Origin: Ketobacter alkanivorans
GTDB lineage: Bacteria; Pseudomonadota; Gammaproteobacteria; Pseudomonadales; Ketobacteraceae
Reading direction: 5' to 3'
Length of the DNA stretch: 64,000 nucleotides
NCBI RefSeq assembly: GCF_002863865.1
Contig: NZ_CP022684.1
Span: forward strand, 682,001 to 746,000
The notes beneath the pieces are model-generated. The model was not told where the DNA came from. It saw only the letters and a program-made list of their open reading frames with translations, and did not search any database. The position numbers and the translations under genes are program-made. Position 1 is the first letter of the stretch, and each line of letters begins with the position of its first letter. Below, one piece after another: positions 3,171 to 18,701 of the stretch.

Positions 3171-3849
3171 TCATCCGAGTTCTGCCAGTGCGGCATTCAA
3201 CGCTGATTCAACCTGGCCCAAATAAATAACACCAAACAGGTTGAAGTGGTTCAACCAATGGTAAAGATCATAAAGGTTACGGCGCAGCACATGCCCTTCC
3301 CGCACCGCAATAGCATGGTGGTACGCATCATAGAATGCCTCACCGGGGGCACCGAACATACGGGTCATGGCCAAATCAGTTTCGGCATCCCCGAAGTACA
3401 CCGCTGGATCAAACAAGGTTGGCTTTCCTTGGGCATCCACTGCCATATTGCCGCTCCACAGATCCCCATGCAATAACACCGGATCAGGCGCATACCCTTT
3501 CATCGCGCCGGGGATCAACGCCATCAAACGATCTAATTGCTCAAGCAGCGCCCGCCGCATACTCTTGGCCTCTGCCAACTTGCGTTGAGGCAACAGACGC
3601 TTATCCACATAAAACGACCACCATTCCGCATGCCAACCATTGCAACCCCAGCGACTCCTTTTTATACATATCCAACTGGCCAATTGAGCCCACCTTCAAA
3701 AACACGGAATCCAAGCCCGGCTTATAGGCTTCATAAGTCGCATTAATGCAGCCAGCACCTGAAGGCCGTATCTCGGCGGTGCGGTAATCGCATCCCAGCT
3801 CTGCCGCTAGCCACGTGAGTATTGCATCTGCTTCGGGGCGTCTAAGCAT
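3171..3849 (-). pseudogene. fructosamine kinase family gene, internally deleted and frameshifted
   Basis: Two frames together make one recognisable but damaged fructosamine/ketosamine-3-kinase (YniA-like). The first 80 or so codons (3849 down to about 3640) give the family N-terminus, ending KKESLGLQWLA. The rest (about 3640 to 3171) resumes in another frame at WHAEWWSFYVDK and keeps the kinase hallmarks LLHGDLWSGN and FDPAVYFGDAETDLAM. Family members are about 290 residues; only about 226 codons remain. The part lost is the segment of roughly 70-80 residues between the first lobe and the W..FY..RL helix. One deletion whose length is not a multiple of three explains both defects. The 5' end overlaps the exonuclease gene by 8 bases. 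A sequencing or assembly error is less likely because of the missing segment. Confidence 0.8.
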
Positions 3850-4732: not shown

Positions 4733-4999
4733 AGTTGTTATATTCCTATCTACAACTAACTATAACTATCTGAAAAGCGTACAAATGCACTATAACCTAG
4801 CAAGTGCATAAGCCAAAGAAGCAGGTCTCAGTAGGGTATACTTTCTGTTTTTGGATAACGGGCGCACAAATTTTAAGTTTACGCCCCCCACTACTTTGCC
4901 AGATCTCAAAAAACCAGCGACAATTAAAGTCTCTAATCCTTTGGCCCACCGGTATTTACGCTTCGAGAGACAATAACAAGAAGTGCCAGGTTGTTACGA
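4733..4999. other. intergenic region between divergent genes
   Basis: 267 bases separate the exonuclease gene (minus strand) from the motor cluster (plus strand). The stretch is AT-rich with several TATAA-like words (for example tatact at 4837-4842), so promoters in both directions are expected. No -35/-10 pair with good spacing could be fixed by eye, and no hairpin or known operator was seen. The short open frame here (4804-5007) has no coding character. Confidence 0.4.
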
Positions 5000-7957
5000 G
5001 TGAGTAAATCTATCAGACAGACTAAAGCAAGTTGGGTGATTTCTACTCTTACTGCCTGCTCACTGTTGTGCGCTCTGGTTCTGACCGGCTGTGCCCCGTC
5101 TTCTCAAACCACCAGCGCCGGTAAAGGCCGCGATCTCACCCTGGCCGATTTAAAACGCCGTGATGTCAGCGTTAAACCGCAAGAACTGGAACCCATTGCC
5201 GCCGAAAAGGTGCTGGCCAGTTACGAACAGGCCGTGGCCTTGTTTTCAACACAAGAAGAGCGCGCACTGGCTCTGCGCCGCATGGCAGACCTCACCATGG
5301 TGGCAACCGAAGACAACATGATCGCCTCCTTGGAGGAATCCCCCCTGGTTGACGGCGCGACTGCAGGCACATCGCCTCAAATCGAAGCACTCCAATACAC
5401 TAAAGCCGTTGCTATCTATGAGGCTCTGATTTTAGGTGCACCTGCTGGAACCGATCTGTCTGAAGAGTATTATCTGCTGGCAAAAGCCTATGATCTGAAC
5501 GGCGAATCCGACAAAGCCCGTGAGACACTGGATGCACTGGTCAGCAAATACCCCGATGGCGAATTCACCTATGAGGCCCAGTTCCGCCGCGGCGAACACC
5601 TGTTTCTGCTGGGGGAATACTCCGACGCCGCTGAAGCCTATGCCTATGTATTAAAAGCGGGTCCGGCACGGGAGTTTTACGAACATTCCCTTTATAAGCA
5701 CGGCTGGAGCCTCTATAAACTGGGGGATTACGATCTGGCAGTAGGTGACTTCGTTGCGCTTCTGGATGGCTACATGCCCACCCCTCCACCCAAAACCGAG
5801 GCCGAAAGGGCCGCGGAGCGACGCGATCGCACCATAACCAAGATTGAAGCTATTCCTCTACCCGAAGTGTCCAAAACTCAGCAAAAAACATTGGATGACA
5901 CCCTGCGCGTACTGAGTATGTCGTTTTCGAATCTGGAGGGTGCCGAAAGCGTATCGCAGTACTTCCGCACCAATGGTTCCCGCATCTATGAGTTCAAGGT
6001 CTATAGTGCCCTCGCAGAGTTATACCTTTATCAGGAGCGCTATAAAGACGCCGCCGACGCCTACGCCATGTTCTCTCAAAAGAACCCGTTGCACCCAATG
6101 GCACCTTCCATGTCGTCCAACGTAATCGACACCTACCAGAAAGGCGGTTTCCCCAGCCTGGTATTGCCATACAAAGAAAAGTTTGTTGAACAATATGGCG
6201 TATACAGCGCCTTCTGGGCCCGCGCCACTCCCCAGGCCCGCGACCAATACAGCGCAGAGCTGAAACAACACCTGATCGAACTGGCCCAGCACTATCACTC
6301 TTCGGCTCAAAAAACCAAGCAACCCAAGGATTACGGTATTGCCGCTCGCTGGTACCGCGAGTTTCTGACCACCTTCCCCAACGACGAAAACGCTCCCGTC
6401 ATGAATATGCTGTTGGGTGAAACCCTGTTTGCCGCCAAAGATTTCCGCCCCGCTATCGAAGAGTTCGAGCGTACCGCATACGACTACCCACCCCACGCCG
6501 ACGCCGAGAAAGCAGCCTATTTTGCCCTGTTGGCCCATCAGGAATACCTCAACACCCTGGCCAAAGACGATCCTACCCGTCGCGGCTGGATCGCCAAGCG
6601 CGCCAGCAGCGCCCTGCGCTTTGCCAAGGCTTACCCAGCCAACGTGAATACACCCAAGGTGCTGGATAACGTCATCGAAGATCAGCTGCTGCTGGGCGAC
6701 ATAGAAAGCGCCATCGTAACCGCCCAGCTCATCATCGAACTGGTTCCACCTGCTCCGCAAGCCTTGAGAGAAAAAGCCTGGATCACCTACGCCAACGGCA
6801 TGTTCGACAAAGGGGCATGGGTGAAAGCGGAGGAAGCCATCAGCAAGGTGCTGGAATTCAACTCCATCAAACCCCAGCAACGGGTCAAGTTCGAGGAAAA
6901 CCTCGCTACCTGCATCTACAAACAGGGTGAAATTCTGGAGCAGGAAGGCCGCCTGGCAGAAGCCGCCGGCGAATATCTGCGTGTTGCCGTTGCCGTGCCC
7001 AACGCCTCCGTACGGGCCAACGCCGACTACGACGCGGCAAACATACTGCTTCAACTGGAAGAATACGACAAAGCCATCAACGTATTGGAAGGCTTCCGCA
7101 AACGCTTCCCGAGCAATGCGCTCACCGCCTCGATTCCGGCCAAGCTCAGTTTTGCCTATGAAAAAACCGGCAACCTGGCCATGGCCTCAGCGGAACTGCT
7201 TACCATTGCCATGCTTAACAAAGACACCAACCCCCAACTGGCACGGGAAGCACTGCTGCAAGCTGCTGAAATGCGCGAGCAAACCGGCGATACCGATGGC
7301 GCAATCGAGCTGTACAAAAAGTTTATCTGGGATTACGAGCGCCCTGTTGCCCCACGCATGGAAGCCCAGTACAAACTGGTTGGCCTGTATGAAAAACAGG
7401 GCGACAGCAACAAACGCTACTTCTGGCTGAATAAACTGGTGGAAACCCACGCCAGCGCAGGCCCCGAGCAATCCGACCGTACCCTGTACCTTGCCGCGTA
7501 CGGCTCCTACAACAGTGCCGATGCCTTATTTGCCGATTTCAAAAGCATACGCCTGACTCAGCCACTCAAAACCAGCCTCAAGAAAAAGAAATCCGCCATG
7601 CAGAAAGCCAGCAAGGCCTACACCAAAACAGTTCAATACGGTGTCATCGATTTCACCACTGCTGCCAACTATAAACTCGGTGAAGTGTATCGCCTGTTCG
7701 CCCGCAGCATCATGGAAAGCGAACGCCCCCGCGGCCTGGATGAGCTGGCCCTGGAGGAATACGAAATACTGCTGGAAGATCAGGCCCTGCCTTTCGAAGA
7801 TAAAGCCATCGCTATATTTCAAACCAACTCCGAGCGAACCAGCAATGGCGTTTGGGATGAATGGATTCAGAGAAGCTACGAATCACTTAGCAAGCTATCG
7901 CCCGGCCGCTACAACAAAACCGAACTGACGGAGGATTACGTTGATGTCATATACTAA
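5000..7957 (+). CDS. large TPR lipoprotein of the ExbB/ExbD motor cluster
   Basis: A 985-residue predicted lipoprotein. The signal peptide ends in lipobox LTGC (Cys31), followed by long tetratricopeptide-like helical repeats over most of the chain, for example residues 150-225, 330-370, 470-520, 620-700 and 740-800. GTG at 5000 is chosen because AGG lies 9 bases upstream; TTG at 4991 is too close to that AGG. As a lipoprotein it should sit in the periplasm, attached to the outer membrane (Ala at +2), and act as a scaffold. It is the first gene of a same-strand cluster with ExbB/ExbD-like motor genes and overlaps the next gene by 14 bases. It probably corresponds functionally to the large TPR components of Glt/Nfs-type machines; direct orthology is not shown. 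Confidence 0.8.
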   Translation: MSKSIRQTKASWVISTLTACSLLCALVLTGCAPSSQTTSAGKGRDLTLADLKRRDVSVKPQELEPIAAEKVLASYEQAVALFSTQEERALALRRMADLTMVATEDNMIASLEESPLVDGATAGTSPQIEALQYTKAVAIYEALILGAPAGTDLSEEYYLLAKAYDLNGESDKARETLDALVSKYPDGEFTYEAQFRRGEHLFLLGEYSDAAEAYAYVLKAGPAREFYEHSLYKHGWSLYKLGDYDLAVGDFVALLDGYMPTPPPKTEAERAAERRDRTITKIEAIPLPEVSKTQQKTLDDTLRVLSMSFSNLEGAESVSQYFRTNGSRIYEFKVYSALAELYLYQERYKDAADAYAMFSQKNPLHPMAPSMSSNVIDTYQKGGFPSLVLPYKEKFVEQYGVYSAFWARATPQARDQYSAELKQHLIELAQHYHSSAQKTKQPKDYGIAARWYREFLTTFPNDENAPVMNMLLGETLFAAKDFRPAIEEFERTAYDYPPHADAEKAAYFALLAHQEYLNTLAKDDPTRRGWIAKRASSALRFAKAYPANVNTPKVLDNVIEDQLLLGDIESAIVTAQLIIELVPPAPQALREKAWITYANGMFDKGAWVKAEEAISKVLEFNSIKPQQRVKFEENLATCIYKQGEILEQEGRLAEAAGEYLRVAVAVPNASVRANADYDAANILLQLEEYDKAINVLEGFRKRFPSNALTASIPAKLSFAYEKTGNLAMASAELLTIAMLNKDTNPQLAREALLQAAEMREQTGDTDGAIELYKKFIWDYERPVAPRMEAQYKLVGLYEKQGDSNKRYFWLNKLVETHASAGPEQSDRTLYLAAYGSYNSADALFADFKSIRLTQPLKTSLKKKKSAMQKASKAYTKTVQYGVIDFTTAANYKLGEVYRLFARSIMESERPRGLDELALEEYEILLEDQALPFEDKAIAIFQTNSERTSNGVWDEWIQRSYESLSKLSPGRYNKTELTEDYVDVIY

Positions 7958-8753
7958 ATCAGCCCTCCCACTGCTGGTGATATTTGCCCTCTCTGGCTGC
8001 TCAATGTTTGGCGACAAAGAAACCCTCGAATCAAGCGATTTCGACATGCCTGATTCCGTCACCATTGACCTGACCGGCGAGGTGCCTGAGGAGCAATCTG
8101 CAGCGCCAGAAGCGGTCGCCATTCCCGATGCGGAAAGCACACAGGCCACGGACACATCTCAAACAGAGTCCACCAGCAACACCATCGCTGACCAAGACTC
8201 CGCTGCGGTATTGGCACGCCTCAATCAACCCAGCCAGGAAGCGATAACACGCGACCCCGAGCAAGCCAAACAAGCAAAACTGGCCCAGCCAGACTACGAT
8301 CGCGCCATCACCGAATTGCGCAAAGGCAACCTGGATGCAGCCATGGCCCGTTTTAAAGACTTATCCCAGCAATATCCGGCCTTATCCGGCCCAATTGTGA
8401 ACCAGGCCATTATTTTAAGAAAAAAAGGTAAAACCCAGGAAGCCTACGACCTGTTGCAGAAATCCATCTTGCAGCATGGGAAAAACCCGTTACTTCTTAA
8501 TGAGTTAGGAGTGTTAAGTCGGCAGCTTGGCAAGTTCAAACAAGCACAGGCCAGCTATGAATCTGCGATCCGTATCGACGAACGCTACGCAGCAGCCCAC
8601 TATAATCTTGGGGTACTGGCGGATCTTTATCTACACGACCCCGCTATGGCCCTGAACCAATTCGAAATCTATCAGACCCTGATCCCCGAGCCGGACCGTA
8701 AAGTCAAAGGCTGGATCATTGAACTACAACGGCGAGCAGCGCGAGCACAATGA
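7944..8753 (+). CDS. TPR lipoprotein, GltE/AglT-like
   Basis: A 269-residue predicted outer-membrane lipoprotein. Signal peptide and lipobox LSGC give acylated Cys19, with Ser at +2. Residues 30-105 form an acidic, Ser/Thr-rich linker. From about 110 to 250 there are three to four TPR units (AITELRKGNLDAAMARF, AYDLLQKSILQHGKN, AQASYESAIRIDERYAAAHYNLG). ATG at 7944 is chosen over TTG at 7941 because an acggagg Shine-Dalgarno lies about 9 bases before it. Start and stop overlap both neighbours (14 and 4 bases), implying translational coupling. Small TPR lipoproteins of this kind (AglT/GltE) anchor Myxococcus gliding complexes at the outer membrane; the same role here is inference from context. 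Confidence 0.82.
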   Translation: MSYTKSALPLLVIFALSGCSMFGDKETLESSDFDMPDSVTIDLTGEVPEEQSAAPEAVAIPDAESTQATDTSQTESTSNTIADQDSAAVLARLNQPSQEAITRDPEQAKQAKLAQPDYDRAITELRKGNLDAAMARFKDLSQQYPALSGPIVNQAIILRKKGKTQEAYDLLQKSILQHGKNPLLLNELGVLSRQLGKFKQAQASYESAIRIDERYAAAHYNLGVLADLYLHDPAMALNQFEIYQTLIPEPDRKVKGWIIELQRRAARAQ

Positions 8754-9040
8754 ACCGATTACATAAGCTGATACGCATACCACTGTTGACTGTGCTGGCC
8801 ATCACCAGCCAAGCCGCATGGTCACTGGATGAAGGTACCACCATTATTGGCACCAAAGAGGCTCCCAACGTGTTGAACGTTGTGCCCTGGCAGAATCGGG
8901 AGCTCAATATAGACCCATGGGAAGCCAAGCCTACTCTGGATTCCCAATTGCTGAATGATTCTCTCAAACCGGTGGATCAAGACGAGTTGCGCAGACAAGT
9001 GGAATATTTTAACCTGCTGCAACACTCTGACCCCAAGTGA
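8750..9040 (+). CDS. small exported protein of the motor cluster
   Basis: A 96-residue protein with a cleavable-looking signal peptide (hydrophobic residues 9-24, ending near QAAWS), leaving about 72 mature residues. The mature part is rich in Asn, Pro, Trp and acidic residues (VVPWQNRELNIDPWEAKP) and ends in a short amphipathic helix. No family is recognised. The ATG overlaps the stop of the preceding TPR gene by 4 bases, which strongly supports that it is real and co-translated. A 137-base gap follows before the ExbB-like gene and could hold an internal promoter, though none was identified. It is probably a periplasmic subunit or plug of the same complex. Confidence 0.7.
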   Translation: MNRLHKLIRIPLLTVLAITSQAAWSLDEGTTIIGTKEAPNVLNVVPWQNRELNIDPWEAKPTLDSQLLNDSLKPVDQDELRRQVEYFNLLQHSDPK

Positions 9041-9177
9041 TTGATCAATAAGGATTTACAGCGCAACAAGAACAAGAAACGACAACCCGGCCACCCTGCA
9101 CTGCTATTCAGGGGCACCGGACACACACTGATTAAACGAACAGATGAAACCTTAATTTGGTAACGCAGGAGACCAAA

Positions 9178-9873
9178 ATGTCTGACACAGTGAATGCTGC
9201 TGAACAAAGCGCAGGATTGATCACCACCACCGCCCAGTTCTTTCAGGAAGGCGGCCCCTTTATGTACATCATATTGGCGGTGTTTCTGGTTGGCCTTGCC
9301 ATCACCCTGGAGCGCTTCATCTATCTGAACCTCACTCAAACCCGAAATCAGATGGTGTGGAAGAAACTGTTTCCCCTCCTGACTCAGGGCAAGTTCAAAT
9401 CAGCCATGGAGGAAGCCAAAGGCTCCGGCAGCGCAGTGGCCAAAATCTTGGTGTACGGTCTGTCCCGCAGCGCCTATGCAACCCGTCATGACGAAGTGGA
9501 AATGGCGATGGAAGAAGGCCTTATGGAAGCAATCCCTCACCTAGAGCGTCGCACCAACTACATCGCCACCTTCGCTAACATCGCAACGCTATTGGGTCTG
9601 TTGGGCACCATCATGGGTCTGATCAATGCATTTACCGCCGTAGCCAGCGCTGATCCGTCGCAGAAAGCCGACCTGCTGTCTGCCAGTATCTCCGTGGCCA
9701 TGAACACCACCGCATTCGGTCTGATGGCGGCGATACCACTCCTGCTGGCCTTTACCTATTTGCAGAACAAAACCAACCAGCTGATCGATAGCATGGAAAT
9801 GGCCTCCGTTAAATTCCTCAACGTATTCCGTCAAGCACAAAGCCAGAAGGCACAGGGCAACGGACAGGGCTAA
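9178..9873 (+). CDS. MotA/TolQ/ExbB proton channel family protein (AglR-like)
   Basis: A 231-residue inner-membrane protein with the ExbB/TolQ layout: an N-terminal membrane segment (residues 22-42), a cytoplasmic domain, then two segments (about 133-155 and 170-195) with the conserved TLLGLLGTIMGLINAF. These proteins form the pentameric collar through which protons drive ExbD/TolR dimers. ATG at 9178 is preferred because GGAG lies about 6 bases upstream; the frame extends to TTG at 9157 without support. Two ExbD-like genes and a TonB-like gene follow, the order expected for an energy-transducing motor. No exbB/tonB receptor genes or tol-pal genes are present, so this is neither an iron-uptake nor a Tol system. 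Confidence 0.9.
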   Translation: MSDTVNAAEQSAGLITTTAQFFQEGGPFMYIILAVFLVGLAITLERFIYLNLTQTRNQMVWKKLFPLLTQGKFKSAMEEAKGSGSAVAKILVYGLSRSAYATRHDEVEMAMEEGLMEAIPHLERRTNYIATFANIATLLGLLGTIMGLINAFTAVASADPSQKADLLSASISVAMNTTAFGLMAAIPLLLAFTYLQNKTNQLIDSMEMASVKFLNVFRQAQSQKAQGNGQG

Positions 9874-9919
9874 TGCTGTTTAGCGTTGGCCAAACGAATA
9901 CGTTTGAGCAGGAGCTGTT

Positions 9920-10459
9920 ATGAGTAGACGCTCGCGTCGAAGACATACTGGAGATGCAGAAATCAACATTACCGCCTTCATGAACCTGATGGTGGTACTG
10001 GTGCCGTTTCTGCTGATTACAGCGGTGTTTTCGCAGATTTCAATTCTTGAACTGAACTTACCGGCCACCACCCCGGCTGTTCAGCAACAGGAAGACAAAA
10101 AACCCATCGTGCTGGAAGTTCTGATATACAAGAACCGATTGGAAGTGGTCGACCGTCAGACAGGGCCACTAAAGATTATTCCTGATATCGGTAACAGTCA
10201 CGATTACGACACTATGGTAAAAACGCTGAAAGCGGTGAAAAATCGTTTCCCTGATATCACCGAGATCACCCTGCTGCTGGAAGCCAATACGCCGTACGAC
10301 GTACTGGTAACCACCATGGATAAAGTGCGCCTGACCAAACAGGTGATCAACGGCACGGCAGAAAGCGCTGAACTGTTTCCGGATATAGCCATTGGCGATG
10401 CGCCGCCCGATAAGCAAAATACCTCCTCCATCAACTCAGTTGAAGGAGGTGCGGCATGA
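9920..10459 (+). CDS. ExbD/TolR-like protein 1, lacking the membrane aspartate
   Basis: A 179-residue biopolymer-transport family protein. It has a short basic cytoplasmic N-terminus, one membrane helix (about residues 17-40) and a periplasmic ExbD/TolR domain with the usual beta-alpha pattern (KPIVLEVLIYKNRLEVVD, ITLLLEANTPYDVLVTTMD). The proton-relaying Asp of ExbD/TolR (in the ..IDVV.. motif) is replaced by Asn22 in ITAFMNLMVV, whereas the next gene keeps it. An AGGAG precedes the ATG by 6 bases. The stop overlaps the next start by 4 bases, so the pair is made together and probably forms a heteromeric stator with a single titratable residue. Family assignment is strong; the functional asymmetry is inference. 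Confidence 0.88.
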   Translation: MSRRSRRRHTGDAEINITAFMNLMVVLVPFLLITAVFSQISILELNLPATTPAVQQQEDKKPIVLEVLIYKNRLEVVDRQTGPLKIIPDIGNSHDYDTMVKTLKAVKNRFPDITEITLLLEANTPYDVLVTTMDKVRLTKQVINGTAESAELFPDIAIGDAPPDKQNTSSINSVEGGAA

Positions 10460-10965
10460 AGCTTTCCCATCGCGCAAAACGCATGGATCGACGCCACAAA
10501 CGCCAGTTCCTGCCCGGCGTAAACCTGGTGTCCTTAATGGACATATTTACCATTCTGGTGTTCTTCCTGCTGGTGAATTCATCGAATACCACTCAGCTGC
10601 CCAGCCAGAAGTCCATTAAGCTGCCTGAGTCCATTGCCGAACAGCTGCCCAAAGAAACACTGACCATTATGGTGAACGACAAAACCATATTGGTGAATGG
10701 GCGCATCGTGGAAGAAGTGCCGACCATCATGGCACAACGCAGCGATACCATTCCTGCCCTGCAAAAAGAACTGCTCTATCAGGCCAGTAAAGCACCGGCA
10801 CTGGTGGTGAATGAGCTGGGCGTCGCAGAACGTGATGTCACCATCATGGGCGACAAGGAAATCCCCTACGCGCTGCTACGCAAAATCATGATGACCTGCA
10901 GCAACAATGAGTATTCACGTATCTCACTGGCTGTCCTCAAGAAAGCGGAGGACAAGCGATCATGA
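10456..10965 (+). CDS. ExbD/TolR-like protein 2, aspartate retained
   Basis: A 169-residue ExbD/TolR family protein with a strongly basic cytoplasmic tail (residues 1-20), one membrane helix (about 22-42) carrying the conserved Asp29 in NLVSLMDIFTILVFFLL, and a periplasmic domain. The Asp is the expected proton-binding residue facing the ExbB-type channel. The start overlaps the upstream ExbD-like gene by 4 bases, and its stop overlaps the TonB-like gene by 4 bases, so all three are translationally coupled. Myxococcus gliding motors likewise use one TolQ-like and two TolR-like proteins (AglR, AglQ, AglS). Which of the two this one matches cannot be decided by eye. Confidence 0.9.
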   Translation: MKLSHRAKRMDRRHKRQFLPGVNLVSLMDIFTILVFFLLVNSSNTTQLPSQKSIKLPESIAEQLPKETLTIMVNDKTILVNGRIVEEVPTIMAQRSDTIPALQKELLYQASKAPALVVNELGVAERDVTIMGDKEIPYALLRKIMMTCSNNEYSRISLAVLKKAEDKRS

Positions 10966-11891
10966 AGCCTCTGTATTACTCAACGCCAAGCCTGCCCTGG
11001 GATCGAGCAGCCGAAGAGGAAAAACTGTTCCGCAAGATGATCTCGGTGTTCATCGTGATATTTGTCATCATGCTTTTGGTGATTCCCAATATCCCGGTAC
11101 CCGAAAAGCAGCGGGATCAAGTGGAGAAAATACCGCCTCGATTGGCAAAACTGGTAATGGAAAAGCAAAAGCCGCCACCACCGCCTCCTCCTCCGAAAGA
11201 AGAGAAAAAAGAGGAAGAGAAAAAGGAAGAACCCAAGAAAGAAGAGCCCAAAAAGGAAGAACCTAAAAAAGAAGAGAAGCCCAAGCCAACAGCGAAAGAA
11301 AAGGCCAAAGCCGCTATTGCTGTCTTTGATGACTTGAGCGATCTAAGGGACACCAATGATCTGGCGGATCTGAAAACCGAGCAGAAATCGATTGCCTCTG
11401 TGGGTGCGCAAGAGCAAACAACCCAGCGTTCACTGGTGGGAACGATGGCACTGGGTAGCAGCGGCGGTGTCAGCACTTCCAAGGCCAGCTCTGGCGGCGG
11501 CGGTTCTGGCACTCTGGCGGGCGTCACCTCAACTAAAGTGGAAAGCCAGATCGCCGATCCCGCTGCCCAAAAAGAGGAACGACGTGGCAAAGATGGTAAA
11601 GCTCGTCGCTCCACTGAAGACATCCAGCTGGTATTTGATAAGCATAAAGGCGCTATTTACTCCTTATATCGTCGGGCATTGCGCAACAACCCAGCCTTGG
11701 AAGGTACCGTGGTACTGCGCATGGAAATCCAACCAGATGGCACTGTCACCAAGTGTGACGTGGTCAGCAGTGAGCTGAACGATGCAGACCTTGAGCGCAA
11801 AATCGTGCTCAAGATCAAACGCATCAACTTTGGTTCCATGGCTGTGGGTGTATGGAACGATACCTACCCCATCTCGTTCATACCGTCGTAA
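10962..11891 (+). CDS. TonB-like protein with AgmX/PglI-type C-terminal domain
   Basis: A 309-residue inner-membrane protein laid out like TonB. It has a short cytoplasmic tail, one membrane segment (about residues 24-44), and a Pro run followed by repeated Lys/Glu/Pro units (about 67-110) that would span the periplasm. Then come a Gly/Ser-rich flexible stretch (about 155-190) and a compact C-terminal domain (about 220-309). That domain starts FDKHKGAIYSLYRRAL and contains GTVVLRMEIQPDGTV, the pattern of AgmX/PglI C-terminal domains seen in Myxococcus gliding proteins and related gammaproteobacterial clusters. It would transmit motor force to outer-membrane partners. It overlaps the ExbD-2 gene by 4 bases. 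Assignment by domain layout is confident; the partner is unknown. Confidence 0.85.
   Translation: MKPLYYSTPSLPWDRAAEEEKLFRKMISVFIVIFVIMLLVIPNIPVPEKQRDQVEKIPPRLAKLVMEKQKPPPPPPPPKEEKKEEEKKEEPKKEEPKKEEPKKEEKPKPTAKEKAKAAIAVFDDLSDLRDTNDLADLKTEQKSIASVGAQEQTTQRSLVGTMALGSSGGVSTSKASSGGGGSGTLAGVTSTKVESQIADPAAQKEERRGKDGKARRSTEDIQLVFDKHKGAIYSLYRRALRNNPALEGTVVLRMEIQPDGTVTKCDVVSSELNDADLERKIVLKIKRINFGSMAVGVWNDTYPISFIPS
11160..11300 (+). repeat. purine-rich low-complexity tract encoding Pro run and KKEEP repeats
   Basis: Within the TonB-like gene, a run of proline codons is followed by about 80 bases almost entirely of A and G on the plus strand. They encode repeats of Lys-Lys-Glu-Glu-Pro. The codons vary between copies, so the repeat is maintained at the protein level, but the tract is still prone to slippage and may vary in length between strains. 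Confidence 0.8.
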
Positions 11892-11907
11892 TGACAAGGG
11901 TAAGAGC

Positions 11908-12408
11908 ATGCTGAGAGCGCTGAGTTGCATCATTATAGGGTTGGCCTTACTGGCCAGCCCTGTAGCGTTCGCCAAAAAACCACCGATAGGTGACAAAGCG
12001 CCTGATTTCACACTGCACAGCGACGGTCCACACAACCTGAGGCTGTCAGAGCAAAAAGGCTATATTGTCGCTGTGGTGTTCTGGGCCAGCTGGTGTCGCT
12101 CCTGCCCGGTACAATTGCAGGCATTGGAACAGTTACAGAAAAAGTACGCCGATTTCGGGGTTAAAGTATGGGCGATTACTCTGGATAAAAATCGCGCCGA
12201 CACCCAACACTATCAGGAGCACAAAGGCCTGGCCCTGACCGTGCTCTATGATGAGACTTTTGTTGTCAGCGAACGCTACGACATAGATGATCTGCCCTCC
12301 TCCTTTATCGTGGATAGGGATGGGGTTATTCGTCATTTGCAAAACGGCTTTGAGCCAACTGACGTCAACACATTCGATACCCTGCTGCAAAGCCTGGTAT
12401 CCGAGTAG
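11908..12408 (+). CDS. TlpA/ResA-like periplasmic thioredoxin-fold protein
   Basis: A 166-residue exported redoxin. The signal peptide (MLRALSCIIIGLALLASPVAFA) is followed by an AhpC/TSA-type thioredoxin fold with the active site WASWCRSC (CxxC near residues 66-69). The cis-Pro region is DLPSSFIVD, and GVIRHLQNGF is the usual terminal strand. Such proteins reduce or shuffle disulfides in the periplasm. ATG at 11908, 16 bases after the TonB-like gene, is used; the frame is open further upstream only because it overlaps that gene. Its place inside the motor cluster suggests it serves a cluster protein or a co-transported substrate, which is inference. Confidence 0.85.
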   Translation: MLRALSCIIIGLALLASPVAFAKKPPIGDKAPDFTLHSDGPHNLRLSEQKGYIVAVVFWASWCRSCPVQLQALEQLQKKYADFGVKVWAITLDKNRADTQHYQEHKGLALTVLYDETFVVSERYDIDDLPSSFIVDRDGVIRHLQNGFEPTDVNTFDTLLQSLVSE

Positions 12409-12431
12409 GCGAACCCAAACGAGTGAAGCAC

Positions 12432-13184
12432 ATGAACGCGATCAATCACAAACTGGCCCGATTATTTTCCGCACTGCTGCTGGTGTCACTCTGCAGCCTG
12501 TCCACTGCGGCTGATCTGGAAGAGACCGTGGATCTTGATGTGGGCGACGACCTTGAGTTCATCGAAATCGATGACATCCTGGATGAAGAAGCCAGCGCCC
12601 CGGCAGCAACCGTTGCCATACCCAAAGCCAATCTCGAGGCACCAGCCGAAGAAGAAGAGTTCGTTGATCTGAACATGATTCTGTACGGCACAGAAAACCC
12701 CAACGGGGATGCGCAAACTGCCATGGCAGACAAAGATCCTGAAACCATGCAACAGGAGATGCAATCCCTCAAGGAAAAGATTCTGCAAGTGAACCGGGAT
12801 CTGTTTATCCTCGAAGAAGATCTACTGTTCCCGAGCAGCACGCAGGTGAACGTGTTCGTGTCTTATGATGCTCTGGAGTACTTTCAGCTGGATGGTGTCT
12901 CGCTCAAAATCAATGATCGCCCTATCAGCAACCACCTCTATACCGAGCGCGAATTGAAAGCAATGAATCGCGGCGCTGTACAGCGACTGTTCACTGGCAA
13001 CCTGCCAGTAGGTGAGCACGAACTGGTTGCGGTGGTGACTGGAGTCGGGCCAGAAGGACGCGACTACAAGCGAGCAGTCAGCATGGCGTTTGAGAAAACC
13101 AGCGGCACCAAATATATCGAACTAACCATCGAAGGGGATGATCTCCGCAAGCAACCCGGCTTCAGACTGAAGCAGTGGGAGTGA
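12432..13184 (+). CDS. acidic exported protein of the motor cluster
   Basis: A 250-residue protein with a signal peptide (cleavage likely after STAA near residue 27). A very acidic segment follows (about 28-80, many Asp/Glu), then a coiled-coil helix (about 103-135, MQQEMQSLKEKILQVNRD). The C-terminal half is beta-rich (about 140-250, with NLPVGEHELVAVVTGVGPEG). No family is recognised with confidence; the last part resembles small carbohydrate- or surface-binding beta domains only in general pattern. Start: ATG at 12432 is preferred over GTG at 12423, three codons earlier, because no clear ribosome site separates them. It sits between the redoxin and the last TPR gene with gaps of 23 and 18 bases, so it belongs to the same transcript. 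Confidence 0.7.
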   Translation: MNAINHKLARLFSALLLVSLCSLSTAADLEETVDLDVGDDLEFIEIDDILDEEASAPAATVAIPKANLEAPAEEEEFVDLNMILYGTENPNGDAQTAMADKDPETMQQEMQSLKEKILQVNRDLFILEEDLLFPSSTQVNVFVSYDALEYFQLDGVSLKINDRPISNHLYTERELKAMNRGAVQRLFTGNLPVGEHELVAVVTGVGPEGRDYKRAVSMAFEKTSGTKYIELTIEGDDLRKQPGFRLKQWE

Positions 13185-13202
13185 TGGCTGAGGAATCCTG
13201 AA

Positions 13203-15362
13203 TTGAAACCGAACCCTCATCGCCTGGCTGATCGGCACCAGACCTCCTCGACACTCTGGAGCCTGAGTGCTGCCTTGGTTATTGCACTGACAATAGCCAT
13301 GCCGGATCGTGCCAACGCCTTGGACCTGGATCCATTTGACTGGTTTGGCTCCGATCAAACTACGGTTGAAGGCACTGAAGCACCGCCACAACCCAAGCCG
13401 CCAGTGCCCATCGATCAACCACATGCGATTGAAGACCTGGCGTATGGTGACTTACTGTATGAGTTCTATCAAGAACATTACTTCTCTGCCATTACCAAAA
13501 TCCTGGTAGCCAAAGAGCGAGGTTTGTTTAAAAACAACAGCGAACACGCAGAGCTGGTATTGGGTGCTCTCTATGTTTCTTATGGCTTACTTGATAACGG
13601 CGAAGCTATTTTCACCAACCTGCTGAATACCTACACATCGCCACAAGGAGCAGATGAATCCTGGTATCAGTTGGCCCGCATTTATTACAAGCGCGGCAGA
13701 CCACAACACGCCTTAGATATACTCACTTCCAATATCAGTGAGCCTGTGGAGTCCCGTGCTGCCGAGTACGTGCTGTTACAAATACTCTGCTACATTCGCC
13801 TGGGTGATGTGAATCAGGCCCAATCCCTGAGCCAATACCTAAAAGAAGATCGAGTCCAAAGCCTGTTTGTGCGTTTTAACATGGGTTCGGCAATGGCGCA
13901 GCTGGGCAATATGGAAGGCGCTGCCGGATACTACCGCGACATCCTCAACAGCAATCAACCCCATACCGACATAGATAAAACTGTGCACGACCAGGCGGCC
14001 CTGGCCCTTGGCATCCATTACTTGCGCAGCAACGAACTGGCCTTGGCGGAACAAACGTTTTTGAAAATTCGTTTGTATGGGCCGGTGGCCAATCGGGCGT
14101 TGTTAGCGCTGGGCTGGACTCATTTTCACGCTGACCGCAAAGCAGACGCGCTAACACCCTGGATGGAGCTGAATGAGCGCCCTCTTACGGATCCATCCGT
14201 TCAGGAAAGCATTCTCAATGTGCCTTTTGTCTATGAAGAACTCGGCGCACTGCAAGATGCCTTGGATGGTTACAATGCGGCCTACAAGATATTCCGCAAC
14301 CAACGCCGCAAACTTGAAAAAATCAAACGCGGAGTATTGCAACCCGACTGGATAGAAAACATCAGCCCCGTGGATTTATCCGGCCAGGATGTAATGGGCA
14401 CCCTCCCCGAGTTTCAGTTGCCGGTGGATGATGAGATCAGTCAGCATTTGTATCAGTATTTCGCCAGCAATGACTTCCAGCGGCTTTATCACGATTACCG
14501 TGAATTACAACGGCTGTACATGGTACTAAACCACTGGGAAAAGCAGTTCCCCAGTTTCAACGAAATGATCAATACCCACGTTGAGCGTCTGAACGAGCTG
14601 GCTCCGCAAGCTGAAAAATCGATTGAGCAGTCACAAAAGTTCTACGCCTATTCACGAGTAAAACTGGATGAATTCGAAACCCGCCTGAATCAGATCATCG
14701 CCAATGACGACCTTATGGGGCTGGCCAATGTGTCCCAACTGGCCCAGAAAGAACGCCTCGATGCCATCGAAAGCACACTTAATGAACTGAATGATCCGGA
14801 TATGTATGCCGAGGAATGGCATAAGCTGAAGCTATTGAAAGGATTGTTGCTGTGGGATCTGAGTGCCGCCTCCATTGACAAAAGATGGGAAACCACCAAA
14901 GAGCAAGTAGCCATCAATAACATGCTCACCGAACTCGAGAACCGGATACGAGCCGTATCCGCTGCCAGAGAAGTTCGACTGAATCGCTTCTACGGATTCG
15001 AGACCCGTGTTATTGACCTGCGCCAGCGAGTGGAAGGCCTTAAAGCTGAAACCGCCAGACAACTTCGCCAACAGCGCCATCAGATGCAGAAACTGGCGGT
15101 CGCTATCATCGAACGGCAGCAGAAGCAACTGGATGCCATGCGCGCAAAAACCTTGTTGGCCATTGCCCGCCTACAGGATCTTGGTTACATGCAGGAGCGA
15201 AATCGCAAAAGAATACGCGAGCAAAGCATTATGTTAGAGCTAGGTGCCGAACCCTCCGATTCGTCGGCCCCGGATACCAACACTGAACTGACCCCGGTGG
15301 ATCAAAAAGAGTCAGCTCAGAACCTGGGTGACGTGATCAAACGCATTTTTTCAGGCGATTGA
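13203..15362 (+). CDS. large exported TPR and coiled-coil protein of the motor cluster
   Basis: A 719-residue protein. It has an N-terminal membrane/signal segment (about residues 20-40, ending near RANA), a TPR-like helical region (about 75-370, for example DESWYQLARIYYKRGRPQHALDIL split across repeats), and a long helical coiled-coil C-terminal half (about 410-680). No Cys suitable for lipidation is present, so it is predicted periplasmic. The start is TTG at 13203 with a GAGGA about 9 bases upstream; there is no suitable ATG before the signal segment. As last gene of the cluster it may be the counterpart of AgmU/GltD-type periplasmic TPR proteins, but this is a layout argument only. Confidence 0.78.
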   Translation: MKPNPHRLADRHQTSSTLWSLSAALVIALTIAMPDRANALDLDPFDWFGSDQTTVEGTEAPPQPKPPVPIDQPHAIEDLAYGDLLYEFYQEHYFSAITKILVAKERGLFKNNSEHAELVLGALYVSYGLLDNGEAIFTNLLNTYTSPQGADESWYQLARIYYKRGRPQHALDILTSNISEPVESRAAEYVLLQILCYIRLGDVNQAQSLSQYLKEDRVQSLFVRFNMGSAMAQLGNMEGAAGYYRDILNSNQPHTDIDKTVHDQAALALGIHYLRSNELALAEQTFLKIRLYGPVANRALLALGWTHFHADRKADALTPWMELNERPLTDPSVQESILNVPFVYEELGALQDALDGYNAAYKIFRNQRRKLEKIKRGVLQPDWIENISPVDLSGQDVMGTLPEFQLPVDDEISQHLYQYFASNDFQRLYHDYRELQRLYMVLNHWEKQFPSFNEMINTHVERLNELAPQAEKSIEQSQKFYAYSRVKLDEFETRLNQIIANDDLMGLANVSQLAQKERLDAIESTLNELNDPDMYAEEWHKLKLLKGLLLWDLSAASIDKRWETTKEQVAINNMLTELENRIRAVSAAREVRLNRFYGFETRVIDLRQRVEGLKAETARQLRQQRHQMQKLAVAIIERQQKQLDAMRAKTLLAIARLQDLGYMQERNRKRIREQSIMLELGAEPSDSSAPDTNTELTPVDQKESAQNLGDVIKRIFSGD

Positions 15363-15460
15363 TATTACGCGCTCACCCAAGCTCTTGCTCTAGCTCATTG
15401 TGAGATCAAATCATACAGGCTAGCATTGACCTCAAATACTGTTCATGTAAGCGGCACACT

Positions 15461-15862
15461 ATGTCTAGCACTACATCTACCAAAACCAACCAACACCCGA
15501 TAATACGAGCCATCGCCTACTTGGTTATCAGCGGTGGATCGATCGTTCTGATATTCAGCCTGGCACTACTGCACAGCACCCTACAAAAGCAAAGTTGGCC
15601 TGCCGCCACAATTGCTCGGGTGAATCAGAGCTTTTACTATCAGGTGGGTGAAAAACGCTACGAAATTCAACCTTCGGATAGCATCAACGACAGCACCCGA
15701 AAAGTATATTTCAACCCAGAGCAACCCGACCAATTTGTGGTTGAGATCCCCAGCTTCTGGTGGCATCTATACTTGAGTATGGCTGGACTTATTGTATTGT
15801 ATGCAGGGTTACATTTGCGCCAAGAGCGCAACCGTAATATCCAGTCCTTGGGGTTCGAATAG
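15461..15862 (+). CDS. DUF3592-like small membrane protein
   Basis: A 133-residue protein with two membrane helices (about residues 16-38 and 98-117) enclosing a small extracytoplasmic domain of about 55 residues. That domain has the pattern WPAATIARVNQSFYYQV...KVYFNPEQPDQFVV typical of DUF3592 proteins. No enzymatic residues are evident. It lies 98 bases after the motor cluster on the same strand, and no terminator hairpin was seen in that gap, so read-through is possible. Function unknown; family assignment is moderate. Confidence 0.65.
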   Translation: MSSTTSTKTNQHPIIRAIAYLVISGGSIVLIFSLALLHSTLQKQSWPAATIARVNQSFYYQVGEKRYEIQPSDSINDSTRKVYFNPEQPDQFVVEIPSFWWHLYLSMAGLIVLYAGLHLRQERNRNIQSLGFE

Positions 15863-15902
15863 AATAAAGCTACCCAAAACCAAACCACTAACGGCAAACA
15901 TA

Positions 15903-16502
15903 ATGGCAAAACATCAAGAGCACATCGTCTGCATCAAATCCTCAAAAGTAACACACCACAAGCATGGCTTTGTCGACTATGAGTTGAGCAATCAAGACCT
16001 GATGCTGGGGCAGCGCGCATCCTTGGAACTGGATGAGGATTTTCGTCAAGTACTGCCTGTCTCGATCTTTACCCACAAAGGCAAAGTATGGGCTTACGAG
16101 CGCACATCCAAAGGCGGAGAAACTCGACTGCATAACAAAGTAGCTGTAGCCGTTGGTGGCCATTGGGATTTGAATGATCTTGTTGTTGAAGACAGCGTTA
16201 TTGATCTCGAAAAATCCCTATCCCAAACCATGGCTCGCGAACTGAATGAGGAGGTACATTTAACCTCGGCAGTTATTAATACTACAGAGCTGGCGCAGAA
16301 GATCTGCTCTGATGAAACAGAGGTAGATAGAGTTCACCTGGCAGTAGTGTACGTTCACGAACTGGACGGAGAAGGTATCGCATCAGCGGAAGAACAGCTG
16401 AAGACAATAGGATTCATATCACCCAAAGAGCTGCTTTCTGGCGAGTATAATATTGAGGGCTGGGCCAGAATCATCTGCGAGATATTAGTTCGGAATACTT
16501 AA
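15903..16502 (+). CDS. Nudix-hydrolase-like protein
   Basis: A 199-residue cytosolic protein. The centre resembles a Nudix domain: VAVAVGGHWD as the entry strand, then a helix with MARELNEEVHL matching the REUxEE core of the Nudix box. The preceding Gly-x5-Glu part is stretched and imperfect. The Glu residues of RELNEE would bind Mg. The N-terminal 60 residues contain CIKSSKVTHHKHGF, resembling small phosphoesterase-like Nudix proteins that act on unknown nucleotides. ATG at 15903 is chosen because the upstream frame overlaps the preceding gene and lacks similarity. Spacing to the upstream gene is 40 bases, suggesting a pair. Activity is not certain given the imperfect box. Confidence 0.65.
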   Translation: MAKHQEHIVCIKSSKVTHHKHGFVDYELSNQDLMLGQRASLELDEDFRQVLPVSIFTHKGKVWAYERTSKGGETRLHNKVAVAVGGHWDLNDLVVEDSVIDLEKSLSQTMARELNEEVHLTSAVINTTELAQKICSDETEVDRVHLAVVYVHELDGEGIASAEEQLKTIGFISPKELLSGEYNIEGWARIICEILVRNT

Positions 16503-16953
16503 TCCACATCCATCAAGCTGATCTAAGGCGCGAGCATCTAACAACCAAAACAGTAGCCTTGCGCCAGGTTGCAGCCCCGCGTCCGCACCTGGAGCCGCTA
16601 CCTGCATATTCAACTCATATATTAACTCGACGCTTTATTGTTGGAGTTTACGTATATGCTACGGAACATCGAACTGGCGGAAATGTCCATTGTCTAATGG
16701 CAATTAGATGCTTTTTTGACCGGGCTCATTAATATTCAAACCCATGATCGAATACAAAGGCTATATTCCCTTGTTTCACTATCCTTTAATGTTAGGTCAA
16801 TATACTGGCTGACGTAGGAAGATATAATAGCAGCGATTCTAAGGGACAGAATCGGCCTGATGTTCACTCAGCTCGCTCAACAACACATTAGAATGTACAG
16901 TGACATGCATTGGCACGTATAAGTAACTACGTGGAACCCAATAAGGATATGAC
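16503..16953 (+). other. gene-free, AT-rich stretch
   Basis: About 450 bases without a convincing reading frame. A short interrupted inverted repeat (ccaggt ... acctgg, near 16565-16595) and a TATAAT word at 16823-16828 are present, but no matching -35 sequence was found. The promoter of the exported DUF4139-like gene at 16954 probably lies in the last 150 bases. Nothing else was recognised. Confidence 0.4.
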
Positions 16954-18420
16954 ATGAAACAGAACCGCAATACCCCCAAAAGCGCCTTATCCATCGCCAT
17001 TTCGATCAGTTTGGCTGTCGGATTATTCAGCGTTGGTATCCGTACCGCTGTCTCCGCGCCCTCCCTTACCATTTACAACGGCAATTTCGCAGTTGTAAGA
17101 GACACCATTAAACTTAACCTCTCCAAAGGCGACAACGATGTTAAGTATCAGGACATAACCAAGCAACTGGAGCCCGATTCTGTGGTGTTTCGGCCAACTG
17201 ATACTAAATGGCCATTATCGATTCTTGAACAAAACTACCTGTCGTTGCCGGTAAATGAGGCCCTGCTACTGAACTATTTTGAAGGCCAGACCATCGACTT
17301 CGAAGTTATCCGCAATAAACAAACCTCGAACCTGCCGGGCAAAATCATACGCAGTGGCCTCTCTGGAGGCTCGCCCATTATCGAAATGGAGGGTAAAACC
17401 CGTTTCGGCTTGCCCGGACGCCCTCTGTTTCCTGCCCTGAAGGATGACACGCTGCTTAAACCTACCTTAGCCTGGCAATTGAAATCGGGTAAATCAGGCG
17501 AGGTAAATGCTGAATTGGCGTATCTCACTGGCGGCCTGAACTGGAAGGCCGACTATAACCTGATTGCAAAAGAAAACACCGACAAGGTTAACGTCAATGG
17601 CTGGGTCACTTTTGAAAACCAATCGGGTAAAAGCTTCAACGCTGCCAAAATAAAATTGATGGCTGGGGACATCAACAAACTGAGCCCTCCTTCGGTAAAC
17701 CTATACAAAGCAAGAGCCATGGCGATGGAAATGGCGATGGATGCCCCAAGCGTTACTCAGAAAGATTTTGATGAGTATCACCTTTATGCCATTGGCCGCC
17801 CGATTGACCTTGCCGATGGTGAAAGCAAACAGGTGGCCTTTGTGGATGCCAGCGGGGTTATCTCCAATACGCGTTTCATTTATGACGGCGCTCAGATTGA
17901 TCAGCGCTATCAACCTGGAATGGAGCGGATTCGCAGCGATCCCAACTACGGCACCCAAAGCAACAACAAAGTGTGGATCTATCGGGAATTCAACAACAGC
18001 AAGAAGAACGGACTGGGTATTCCTCTGCCAAAGGGCCGCGTGAGATTCTACCAAGCAGATAACGACGGGCAGCTTGAGTTTCTTGGTGAAAACAATATCG
18101 ACCACACCGCAACCGAGGCAAAGGTATCATTATACACAGGGAACGCATTTGACGTGGTTGGTAGCCGCAAACGTTTGGATTTCCAAATGAATGATCGTCA
18201 GAACTCGGCTCAGGAATCCTTTGCTATAACGCTGAAAAACAGCAAGAAAGTACCTGTAACCGTTTCAATTGTGGAACACCTATATCGTTGGACCACATGG
18301 TCTATTCAAACGCATTCAAGTCCATTCGACAAAACTGACGCTCAAACCATTGAGTTCGAAGTGGAGCTAAAACCAGATCAGGAAAAAACCACCACCTACA
18401 CCGTTCACTATCAGTGGTGA
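16954..18420 (+). CDS. exported DUF4139-domain protein
   Basis: A 488-residue protein with a signal peptide (hydrophobic 13-33, cleavage near AVSA) and a beta-rich body. The start FAVVRDTIKLNLSKGDNDVKYQDI and later DLADGESKQVAFVDASGV fit the DUF4139 family, exported proteins of unknown function. The mature protein has no Cys and no enzymatic motif that I recognise. The ATG has an aagga 7 bases upstream. A probable outer-membrane or periplasmic location is inferred. It stands alone: 451 bases upstream and about 280 downstream are non-coding, so it likely has its own promoter. Alternative: a surface adhesin-like protein. Confidence 0.75.
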   Translation: MKQNRNTPKSALSIAISISLAVGLFSVGIRTAVSAPSLTIYNGNFAVVRDTIKLNLSKGDNDVKYQDITKQLEPDSVVFRPTDTKWPLSILEQNYLSLPVNEALLLNYFEGQTIDFEVIRNKQTSNLPGKIIRSGLSGGSPIIEMEGKTRFGLPGRPLFPALKDDTLLKPTLAWQLKSGKSGEVNAELAYLTGGLNWKADYNLIAKENTDKVNVNGWVTFENQSGKSFNAAKIKLMAGDINKLSPPSVNLYKARAMAMEMAMDAPSVTQKDFDEYHLYAIGRPIDLADGESKQVAFVDASGVISNTRFIYDGAQIDQRYQPGMERIRSDPNYGTQSNNKVWIYREFNNSKKNGLGIPLPKGRVRFYQADNDGQLEFLGENNIDHTATEAKVSLYTGNAFDVVGSRKRLDFQMNDRQNSAQESFAITLKNSKKVPVTVSIVEHLYRWTTWSIQTHSSPFDKTDAQTIEFEVELKPDQEKTTTYTVHYQW

Positions 18421-18472
18421 TAGCACCAACATTGTGTTCGCGTGTGGATCTCTTGAATCAAAATAAAATAGT

Positions 18473-18499
18473 GACGGCTTCTAGGCAGCGACGGCTTCT
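18473..18499 (+). repeat. short direct repeat, 10 bp, in the gap before the sulfatase gene
   Basis: The word gacggcttct occurs at 18473-18482 and again at 18490-18499, a 17-base period. It lies in the 281-base gap between the DUF4139-like gene and the sulfatase gene. It could be a regulator site because the two copies lie about one and a half helical turns apart, or simply chance. The rest of the gap is AT-rich, with aaggag as the sulfatase ribosome site near 18689. Confidence 0.35.
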
Positions 18500-18701
18500 G
18501 AATTAGAGGTTAAACATTAATCAAGAGCGTGAATTTTTGCCAAATAATATTCGGAAAATACTACTCGGTTGGGTAACATGAAAAAGGGAGTGGGCTTGGT
18601 TTGCTTAACTTGGGAGGTGAGCGAATACACATTAAATTTTGCCTTAACAAATCTTACAGAATCTACTTTTACTTAATTAATGTTAGCAAGGAGCTGAGTT
18701 T

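Follow-up and report, generated by a model that had tools for sequence, protein, structure and literature searches.

A ten-gene Agl-Glt-like operon of Ketobacter alkanivorans with an Asn/Asp-split motor and a putative outer-membrane partner

Organization of the locus

The subject of this analysis is a ten-gene operon in a stretch of 64,000 nucleotides (the window) from Ketobacter alkanivorans, corresponding to positions 682001-746000 of the 4.91-Mb single-contig genome. The ten genes lie on the plus strand between window positions 4991 and 15362, and the gaps between them, from gene 1 to gene 10, are -17, -4, 116, 46, -4, -4, 16, 14, and 18 bp; judged by this arrangement, they form a single operon. 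A first-pass annotation, made from the sequence alone, had described a ten-gene ExbB/ExbD-TonB-like cluster with tetratricopeptide repeat (TPR) lipoproteins at this place, which is correct except that its start was off by nine bases. Beyond that description, we found that the proton site is missing in one of the two TolR-like subunits, that an unlinked outer-membrane module is encoded elsewhere in the genome, and that gene 9 has a myxobacterial homologue. The genes and their predicted products (lengths in amino acids, aa) are as follows.

Gene 1, 4991..7957, plus strand: 988 aa, GltD-like TPR lipoprotein (lipobox LTGC)
Gene 2, 7941..8753, plus strand: 270 aa, GltE-like TPR lipoprotein (lipobox LSGC)
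Gene 3, 8750..9040, plus strand: 96 aa, small and exported; flanked by the genes for the GltE-like and AglR-like proteins
Gene 4, 9157..9873, plus strand: 238 aa, AglR-type (MotA/TolQ/ExbB) motor subunit (MotA_ExbB, 97.8 bits)
Gene 5, 9920..10459, plus strand: 179 aa, AglQ-type ExbD/TolR subunit (ExbD, 47.6 bits), Asn at the proton-site position
Gene 6, 10456..10965, plus strand: 169 aa, AglS-type ExbD/TolR subunit (ExbD, 59.4 bits), proton-site Asp present
Gene 7, 10962..11891, plus strand: 309 aa, GltG-like TonB arm
Gene 8, 11908..12408, plus strand: 166 aa, exported TlpA/ResA-like thioredoxin (AhpC-TSA, 87 bits; ResA, 84 bits)
Gene 9, 12423..13184, plus strand: 253 aa, exported; signal segment, linker, coiled coil (106-135), and beta-sandwich (141-252)
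Gene 10, 13203..15362, plus strand: 719 aa, GltC-like exported TPR plus helical protein

Pfam and NCBIfam models recognize the MotA_ExbB and the two ExbD domains, TPRs in genes 1, 2, and 10, the TlpA/ResA-like thioredoxin in gene 8, and an AgmX/PglI-type C-terminal domain in gene 7 (NF033768, 66.4 bits, cut-off 40), but gave no match at all for genes 3 and 9. Promoter and terminator scans of the operon yielded nothing above shuffled sequence.

Gene 7 consists of a short cytoplasmic end, one transmembrane segment, a Pro/Lys-rich linker, and the AgmX/PglI domain. It matches GltG with 49 bits, in an alignment that begins only at position 364 of the 650 profile positions, and Pfam detects no FHA domain in it. 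The GltJ profile gives 34 bits (cut-off 450). Gene 3 matches no described family and is, by sequence, a small family of its own, marked by the motif G-x-x-E-x-P-x-V-x-x-[VI]-P-W and by the residues G34, P39, P46, W47, and R82, which are invariant in the 18 loci aligned. No homologue of it was found in the myxobacterial clusters described below.

Assignment to the gammaproteobacterial core complex

For comparison with myxobacteria, MglA loci were fetched with the M. xanthus MglA sequence, itself checked over its full length against PDB 6hjh, as query; the comparators named here are Myxococcus sp. CA023 and Hyalangium versicolor. We also tried Geobacter AOG1 and Geomonas Red32 but rejected them, since no core was found in either and the best GltD-profile score was 38 bits.

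The adjacent genes 4, 5, and 6 are of the aglR, aglQ, and aglS type. With the gene order unchanged, their profiles match both the M1 (AglRQS-type) motor and the M2 motor at 158-184, 72-83, and 75-94 bits, respectively. In the gene 4 tree, a clade of 27 rows with support 100/99 unites gene 4 and its relatives with both AglR-type motors of the myxobacteria, and the Tol/Exb paralogues of both genomes fall outside of it. A gene 4-like match in locus L303 proved to be a long-branch false match.

These data also bear on the idea that the cluster arose by duplication of a Tol-Pal or TonB-ExbBD system to which TPR proteins were added. Such a reading could appeal to the common MotA/TolQ and ExbD/TolR folds and to a weak TolQ profile score, but it is practically untenable, being refuted by scores far under the cut-offs for TolQ (70.6 vs. 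221 bits) and ExbB (45.5 vs. 206 bits) together with the gene 4 tree; the scores for ExbD (26 vs. 123 bits) and TonB (25.2 vs. 27.1 bits) are also too low, a separate true TolQ is encoded elsewhere in the genome (TIGR02796, 288 bits, cut-off 221), and the operon contains no TolB, Pal, or TonB-dependent receptor.

The remaining subunits point in the same direction as the motor. The family profile of gene 1 matches myxobacterial GltD-type proteins with 246 bits, and those of the Myxococcus and Hyalangium clusters with 292-311 bits; the gene 2 profile matches the myxobacterial protein adjoining GltD (92-175 bits); and gene 10 aligns with myxobacterial GltC/NfsC-type proteins in hhalign (E 7e-11, probability 97%). 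Two other names for gene 1 were considered and rejected. It passes the NCBIfam equivalog for YbgF (102.5 bits, cut-off 90.1), but this TPR model is short, with 119 positions, and the name is ruled out by the protein size, the operon, and the GltD match. Automatic annotation may therefore misname this GltD-like protein. The GldLM-PorW machinery of type IX secretion likewise combines a proton motor with a TPR lipoprotein, but gene 1 reaches only 30 bits with PorW/SprE, far below the cut-off of 250, and the motor belongs to another family.

A gammaproteobacterial core complex of gltD, gltE, gltG, gltC, aglR, aglQ, and aglS, with no known function, has been described (PMC3169522; repeated in PMC3858216). 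Because of the motor profiles, the gene 4 tree, and the GltD, GltE, and GltC matches, the operon is this core complex ('Group B' of Luciano et al. 2011). The likeness to Agl-Glt/Nfs machines noted in the first-pass annotation is thus borne out, and so is its remark that reduced versions without an assigned role occur in gammaproteobacteria. The seven genes are the ones published, which also lie in one operon. The published core has one additional gene, without a homologue in Myxococcales, which is not identifiable from the text of PMC3169522, whereas there are three additional genes here (3, 8, and 9), of which gene 9 has a remote myxobacterial homologue. A second difference concerns the proton-site Asp, on which the main text of PMC3169522 is silent.

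An asymmetric proton site

The transmembrane helix of gene 5 reads INITAFM-N-LMVVLVPFLL, compared to INLTAFI-D-LMAVTISFLI in the AglQ of Myxococcus sp. The exchanged position is that of D28 of AglQ, the proton-carrying Asp; in M. xanthus, a D28N exchange abolishes proton conductance and function (PMC3858216). Gene 6 retains the Asp (VSLM-D-IFTIL). We surveyed this site in 66 loci, each with both subunits detected. Gene 6 has Asp in all of them. The gene 5 position is occupied by Asn in 63 loci (60 genomes, 41 GTDB families), by Ser in one, and by Asp in two divergent cores, L061 (16864-17442) and L292. Asp is also found in all six AglQ-side and five AglS-side myxobacterial proteins checked, as well as in six further ExbD/TolR proteins that the window genome encodes. 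Of the two cores with Asp in gene 5, L061 is the earliest gammaproteobacterial branch of the gene 4 tree, a position that would fit an ancestral Asp. An Asn in an AglQ-type subunit was not reported in the literature that we searched, which misses most subscription papers.

Canonical AglRQS motors have Asp in both MotB-like subunits. With Asn in gene 5 and Asp in gene 6, we do not class the motor as canonical AglRQS, although it may work like one. To judge from the alignments, an Asn that is nearly fixed over 41 families is not the result of decay. It implies that a gene 5 dimer could not carry protons, so that the simplest role for gene 5 would be that of a silent partner to gene 6 in a heterodimer, implying a single proton site per heterodimer. 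A 2022 review of 5:2 motors, in which both subunits are described with Asp, names the question of AglQ/AglS hetero- versus homodimers as a critical unknown (PMC9389320). Alternatively, gene 5 could be purely structural or regulatory, and the working motor could be a gene 6 homodimer within a gene 4 pentamer. The retention of Asp by gene 6 alone and the unsettled dimer state noted in that review would be compatible with such a motor, but in 66 loci gene 5 has stayed next to gene 6, and its Asn is itself conserved instead of varying freely, which makes the homodimer doubtful in our view.

Conservation of the operon and a myxobacterial relative of gene 9

The genome sets used here are samples. 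Of the 232 gammaproteobacterial genomes drawn evenly for the class survey, 54 contain the core gene 1 (E < 1e-30). The neighbourhood, whose conservation in relatives the first-pass annotation had left to be determined, is widely kept across Gammaproteobacteria. Within the window's family, the order 1-2-3-4-5-6-7-8-9-10 is complete in nine of ten loci, and the tenth ends at a contig edge. Outside this family, the order across the class is 9-10-1-2-3-4-5-6-7. Gene-order conservation far exceeds chance. A thioredoxin inside the operon after gene 7 is restricted to the window's family; elsewhere a related thioredoxin, where present, belongs to the outer-membrane module upstream (see below).

Ten genomes contain, beside a set with a motor, a second envelope set without a motor gene within ~8 kb downstream, as judged by adjacency alone. 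In five of them (G119, G129, G132, G237, and G243), the motorless set is the one linked to the outer-membrane module. By analogy, the coexistence of motorless and motor-bearing sets resembles the sharing of AglRQS by Glt and Nfs.

Gene 9, which was found in 27 of 58 relatives, could be traced to myxobacteria. Its profile matches a 234-aa Myxococcus protein (E 1.4e-5) and a 308-aa Hyalangium protein (E 2e-4), and a profile-profile comparison with the myxobacterial homologue in hhalign gave E 9e-7 at a probability of 91%. The loci are L219 5888-7792 (Myxococcus sp. CA023) and L223 7185-8111 (Hyalangium). This weak sequence match appears credible because the gene order is also kept: gene 9, gene 10, and gene 1 follow each other in both myxobacteria, and in Hyalangium gene 2 and a GltG-type gene come next. 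The Myxococcus cluster sits on the mglA-bearing contig, and the gene 1 counterpart in this mglA-side cluster is the top GltD match of that genome. The mglA-side clusters differ from the operon in that the stretch read contains no motor genes, and in a longer, by eye FHA-like, N-terminus of the GltG-type protein.

An AlphaFold2 model of gene 9 shows the signal segment, a low-confidence linker, the coiled coil, and a confident beta-sandwich, with C-terminal values of the predicted local distance difference test (pLDDT) mostly >90. A fold search of the PDB with this model returned no match with E < 0.001. Weaker immunoglobulin-like, fimbrial, and carbohydrate-binding-module-like fold matches were not significant and were not used.

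An outer-membrane module that tracks the core

In other families, the region immediately upstream of gene 9 often holds an outer-membrane module. This module contains a lipoprotein of 900-1000 aa, an SH3-plus-barrel protein, a TIGR04565 barrel, a thioredoxin, DUF4266 and DUF3570 proteins, and often ApbE. The TIGR04565 family also includes a Myxococcus protein of 256 aa that is encoded next to the 674-aa GltC and, by its size and position, is probably GltA (table in PMC3169522). GltA and GltB have been reported only from Myxococcales and Bdellovibrionales (PMC3169522); by contrast, we found that their barrel family tracks the gammaproteobacterial core. Of the 54 core genomes, 35 have a TIGR04565 match above the cut-off, compared with 0 of the 178 genomes without a core (Fisher 4.6e-28, without phylogenetic correction). 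The barrel locus lies within 30 kb of a core, mostly at 4-6 kb, in 26 of 36 cases, and within 6 kb of the barrel there is a haem-type lipoprotein in 31 and a DUF3570 gene in 35 of the 36. All 13 other genomes of the window's family with at least 84% completeness encode the barrel. A barrel without a detected gene 9 occurs in G010 and G012, both of the window's family, and in the borderline case G033. DUF3570 alone was rejected as a marker, with many matches in core-less genomes; the one subfamily that tracks the core is the divergent one found next to the barrels.

In the window genome, the module is located at 3.832-3.844 Mb, 3.1 Mb away from the core:

Outer-membrane module, L177 (genome 3824600-3844500), positions 7536-19688: tracks the Glt-like core

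Its order is DUF3570, thioredoxin, barrel, SH3-barrel, and lipoprotein, followed by CxxCH and TAT-type (twin-arginine translocation) proteins. The barrel at C1:3834062-3834912 (TIGR04565, 135.7 bits) and the SH3-barrel are thus unlinked GltA/GltB-type proteins, an assignment that holds at the level of family and not of orthology. The first-pass annotation had seen no further gliding gene, which is true of the window; for the genome it no longer holds in view of this matching outer-membrane set.

The lipoprotein profile matches the alpha subunit of hydrazine synthase (5c2v, E 8e-20), and full-length module lipoproteins carry two or three CxxCH motifs. A structure model of this c-haem-type lipoprotein reached a mean pLDDT of 50; its N-terminal half is all-beta, and nothing further could be interpreted. 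DUF3570 is flavinylated by ApbE at [S/T]GA[S/T] motifs (PMC8238504), and the copy of the window genome has one such motif, SGAS.

Possible functions of the machine

What the core machine does in bacteria that do not glide has been an open question since 2011. Taken together, we consider it fairly probable that the cluster is a gammaproteobacterial trans-envelope machine of the Agl-Glt/Nfs kind, in which an Asn/Asp-split motor acts on an outer-membrane or surface complex and does not serve gliding. A pentamer of gene 4 would enclose an obligate heterodimer of genes 5 and 6, with proton binding at gene 6 only. This motor would pull or twist gene 7 through the cell wall, and genes 1, 2, 9, and 10 would pass the force from this arm to the outer-membrane barrel complex, where the barrels and the lipoprotein would be the load or its gate. 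The likeliest use would be to move, open, or assemble an outer-membrane or surface complex, and the complex acted upon is probably encoded elsewhere in the genome. A proton-powered motor that spans the envelope and moves or assembles something at the surface had already been proposed in the first-pass annotation; this proposal is still indirect, but now gains support from the linked outer-membrane barrels and lipoproteins.

Several points weigh against this interpretation. The AglQ Asp is needed in M. xanthus, and the Asn might mean a weaker or non-rotary motor. Gene 5 has Asp in two divergent loci and Ser in one. The heterodimer is an assumption taken over from relatives, and so is the 5:2 stoichiometry. 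Moreover, the 3.1-Mb distance of the module leaves its partnership with the core in the window genome to co-occurrence, and 19 of the 54 core genomes do not have the barrel family.

The most serious competing function is the export or surface placement of a redox-active lipoprotein complex, made up of haem-type lipoproteins and a flavinylated barrel, in which the thioredoxin would help to attach haem or to control disulfides; we regard this as possible but tentative. It is suggested by the adjacent module with its hydrazine-synthase-alpha-like lipoprotein, other CxxCH proteins, DUF3570 as an ApbE substrate, DUF4266, and ApbE itself. But the argument is one of genomic association, with haem binding, flavinylation, and surface exposure all predicted, and about one third of the core genomes are without the module. 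A combined version, in which a one-site Agl motor with an obligate AglQ-Asn/AglS-Asp heterodimer drives a surface redox or lipoprotein-display apparatus of haem lipoproteins and a flavinylated barrel, is rather unlikely as a whole.

Assembly or transport of a surface polysaccharide is also unlikely. It has a clear precedent in the Agl-Nfs machine of the spore coat, which shares the Agl core and moves glycan strands (PMC3858216), and the beta-sandwich of gene 9, with its insignificant carbohydrate-binding and fimbrial fold matches, would suit such a role. The logic of a shared motor is similar as well, since Gammaproteobacteria, too, have envelope sets with no motor next to them. However, neither capsule or polymer export nor spore-coat or Exo polymer genes were recognized among the recurrent linked neighbours, those annotated being barrels, thioredoxin, DUF3570, ApbE, and haem-type lipoproteins.

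Gliding or another form of surface motility is very unlikely for this species. Seven components are homologous to Agl-Glt, and like M. xanthus the genome has the motor, GltD, GltE, GltC, and GltG-type parts, and GltA/B-type barrels. The AglQ-type subunit has Asn for Asp, and GltF, GltH, GltI, GltJ, GltK, MglA, and AglZ are absent from the operon, the whole genome not having been searched for them. Gliding is an unlikely use because gene 7, with its short cytoplasmic end, lacks the FHA part that GltG has in the cytoplasm, and because in published work the core alone drives no motility; it is insufficient for it, and gliding is undocumented in most carriers (Luciano et al. 2011, PMC3169522).

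With its conserved Asp-to-Asn exchange, one of the two subunits provides a natural experiment both on the role of the core machine outside gliding bacteria and on the pairing of AglQ and AglS. The exchange predicts a heterodimer, and the Asn/Asp split tests whether a 5:2 stator can run with one proton site. The outer-membrane module, in turn, offers concrete candidates for the load.

Additional observations

Other motor-like genes were noted at G000 C1:2727973-2728877 and 3912380-3913253, where a MotA_ExbB protein of 470-515 aa is followed by a short MotA_ExbB protein and then by ExbD. Upstream of the operon, the minus strand of the window carries a fructosamine-kinase-like gene (3177-3849; named by eye) that is broken by an internal deletion of ~70 codons and a frame change. 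A congener has an intact 298-aa copy at the same site, between pdxB-like and exonuclease-like genes.

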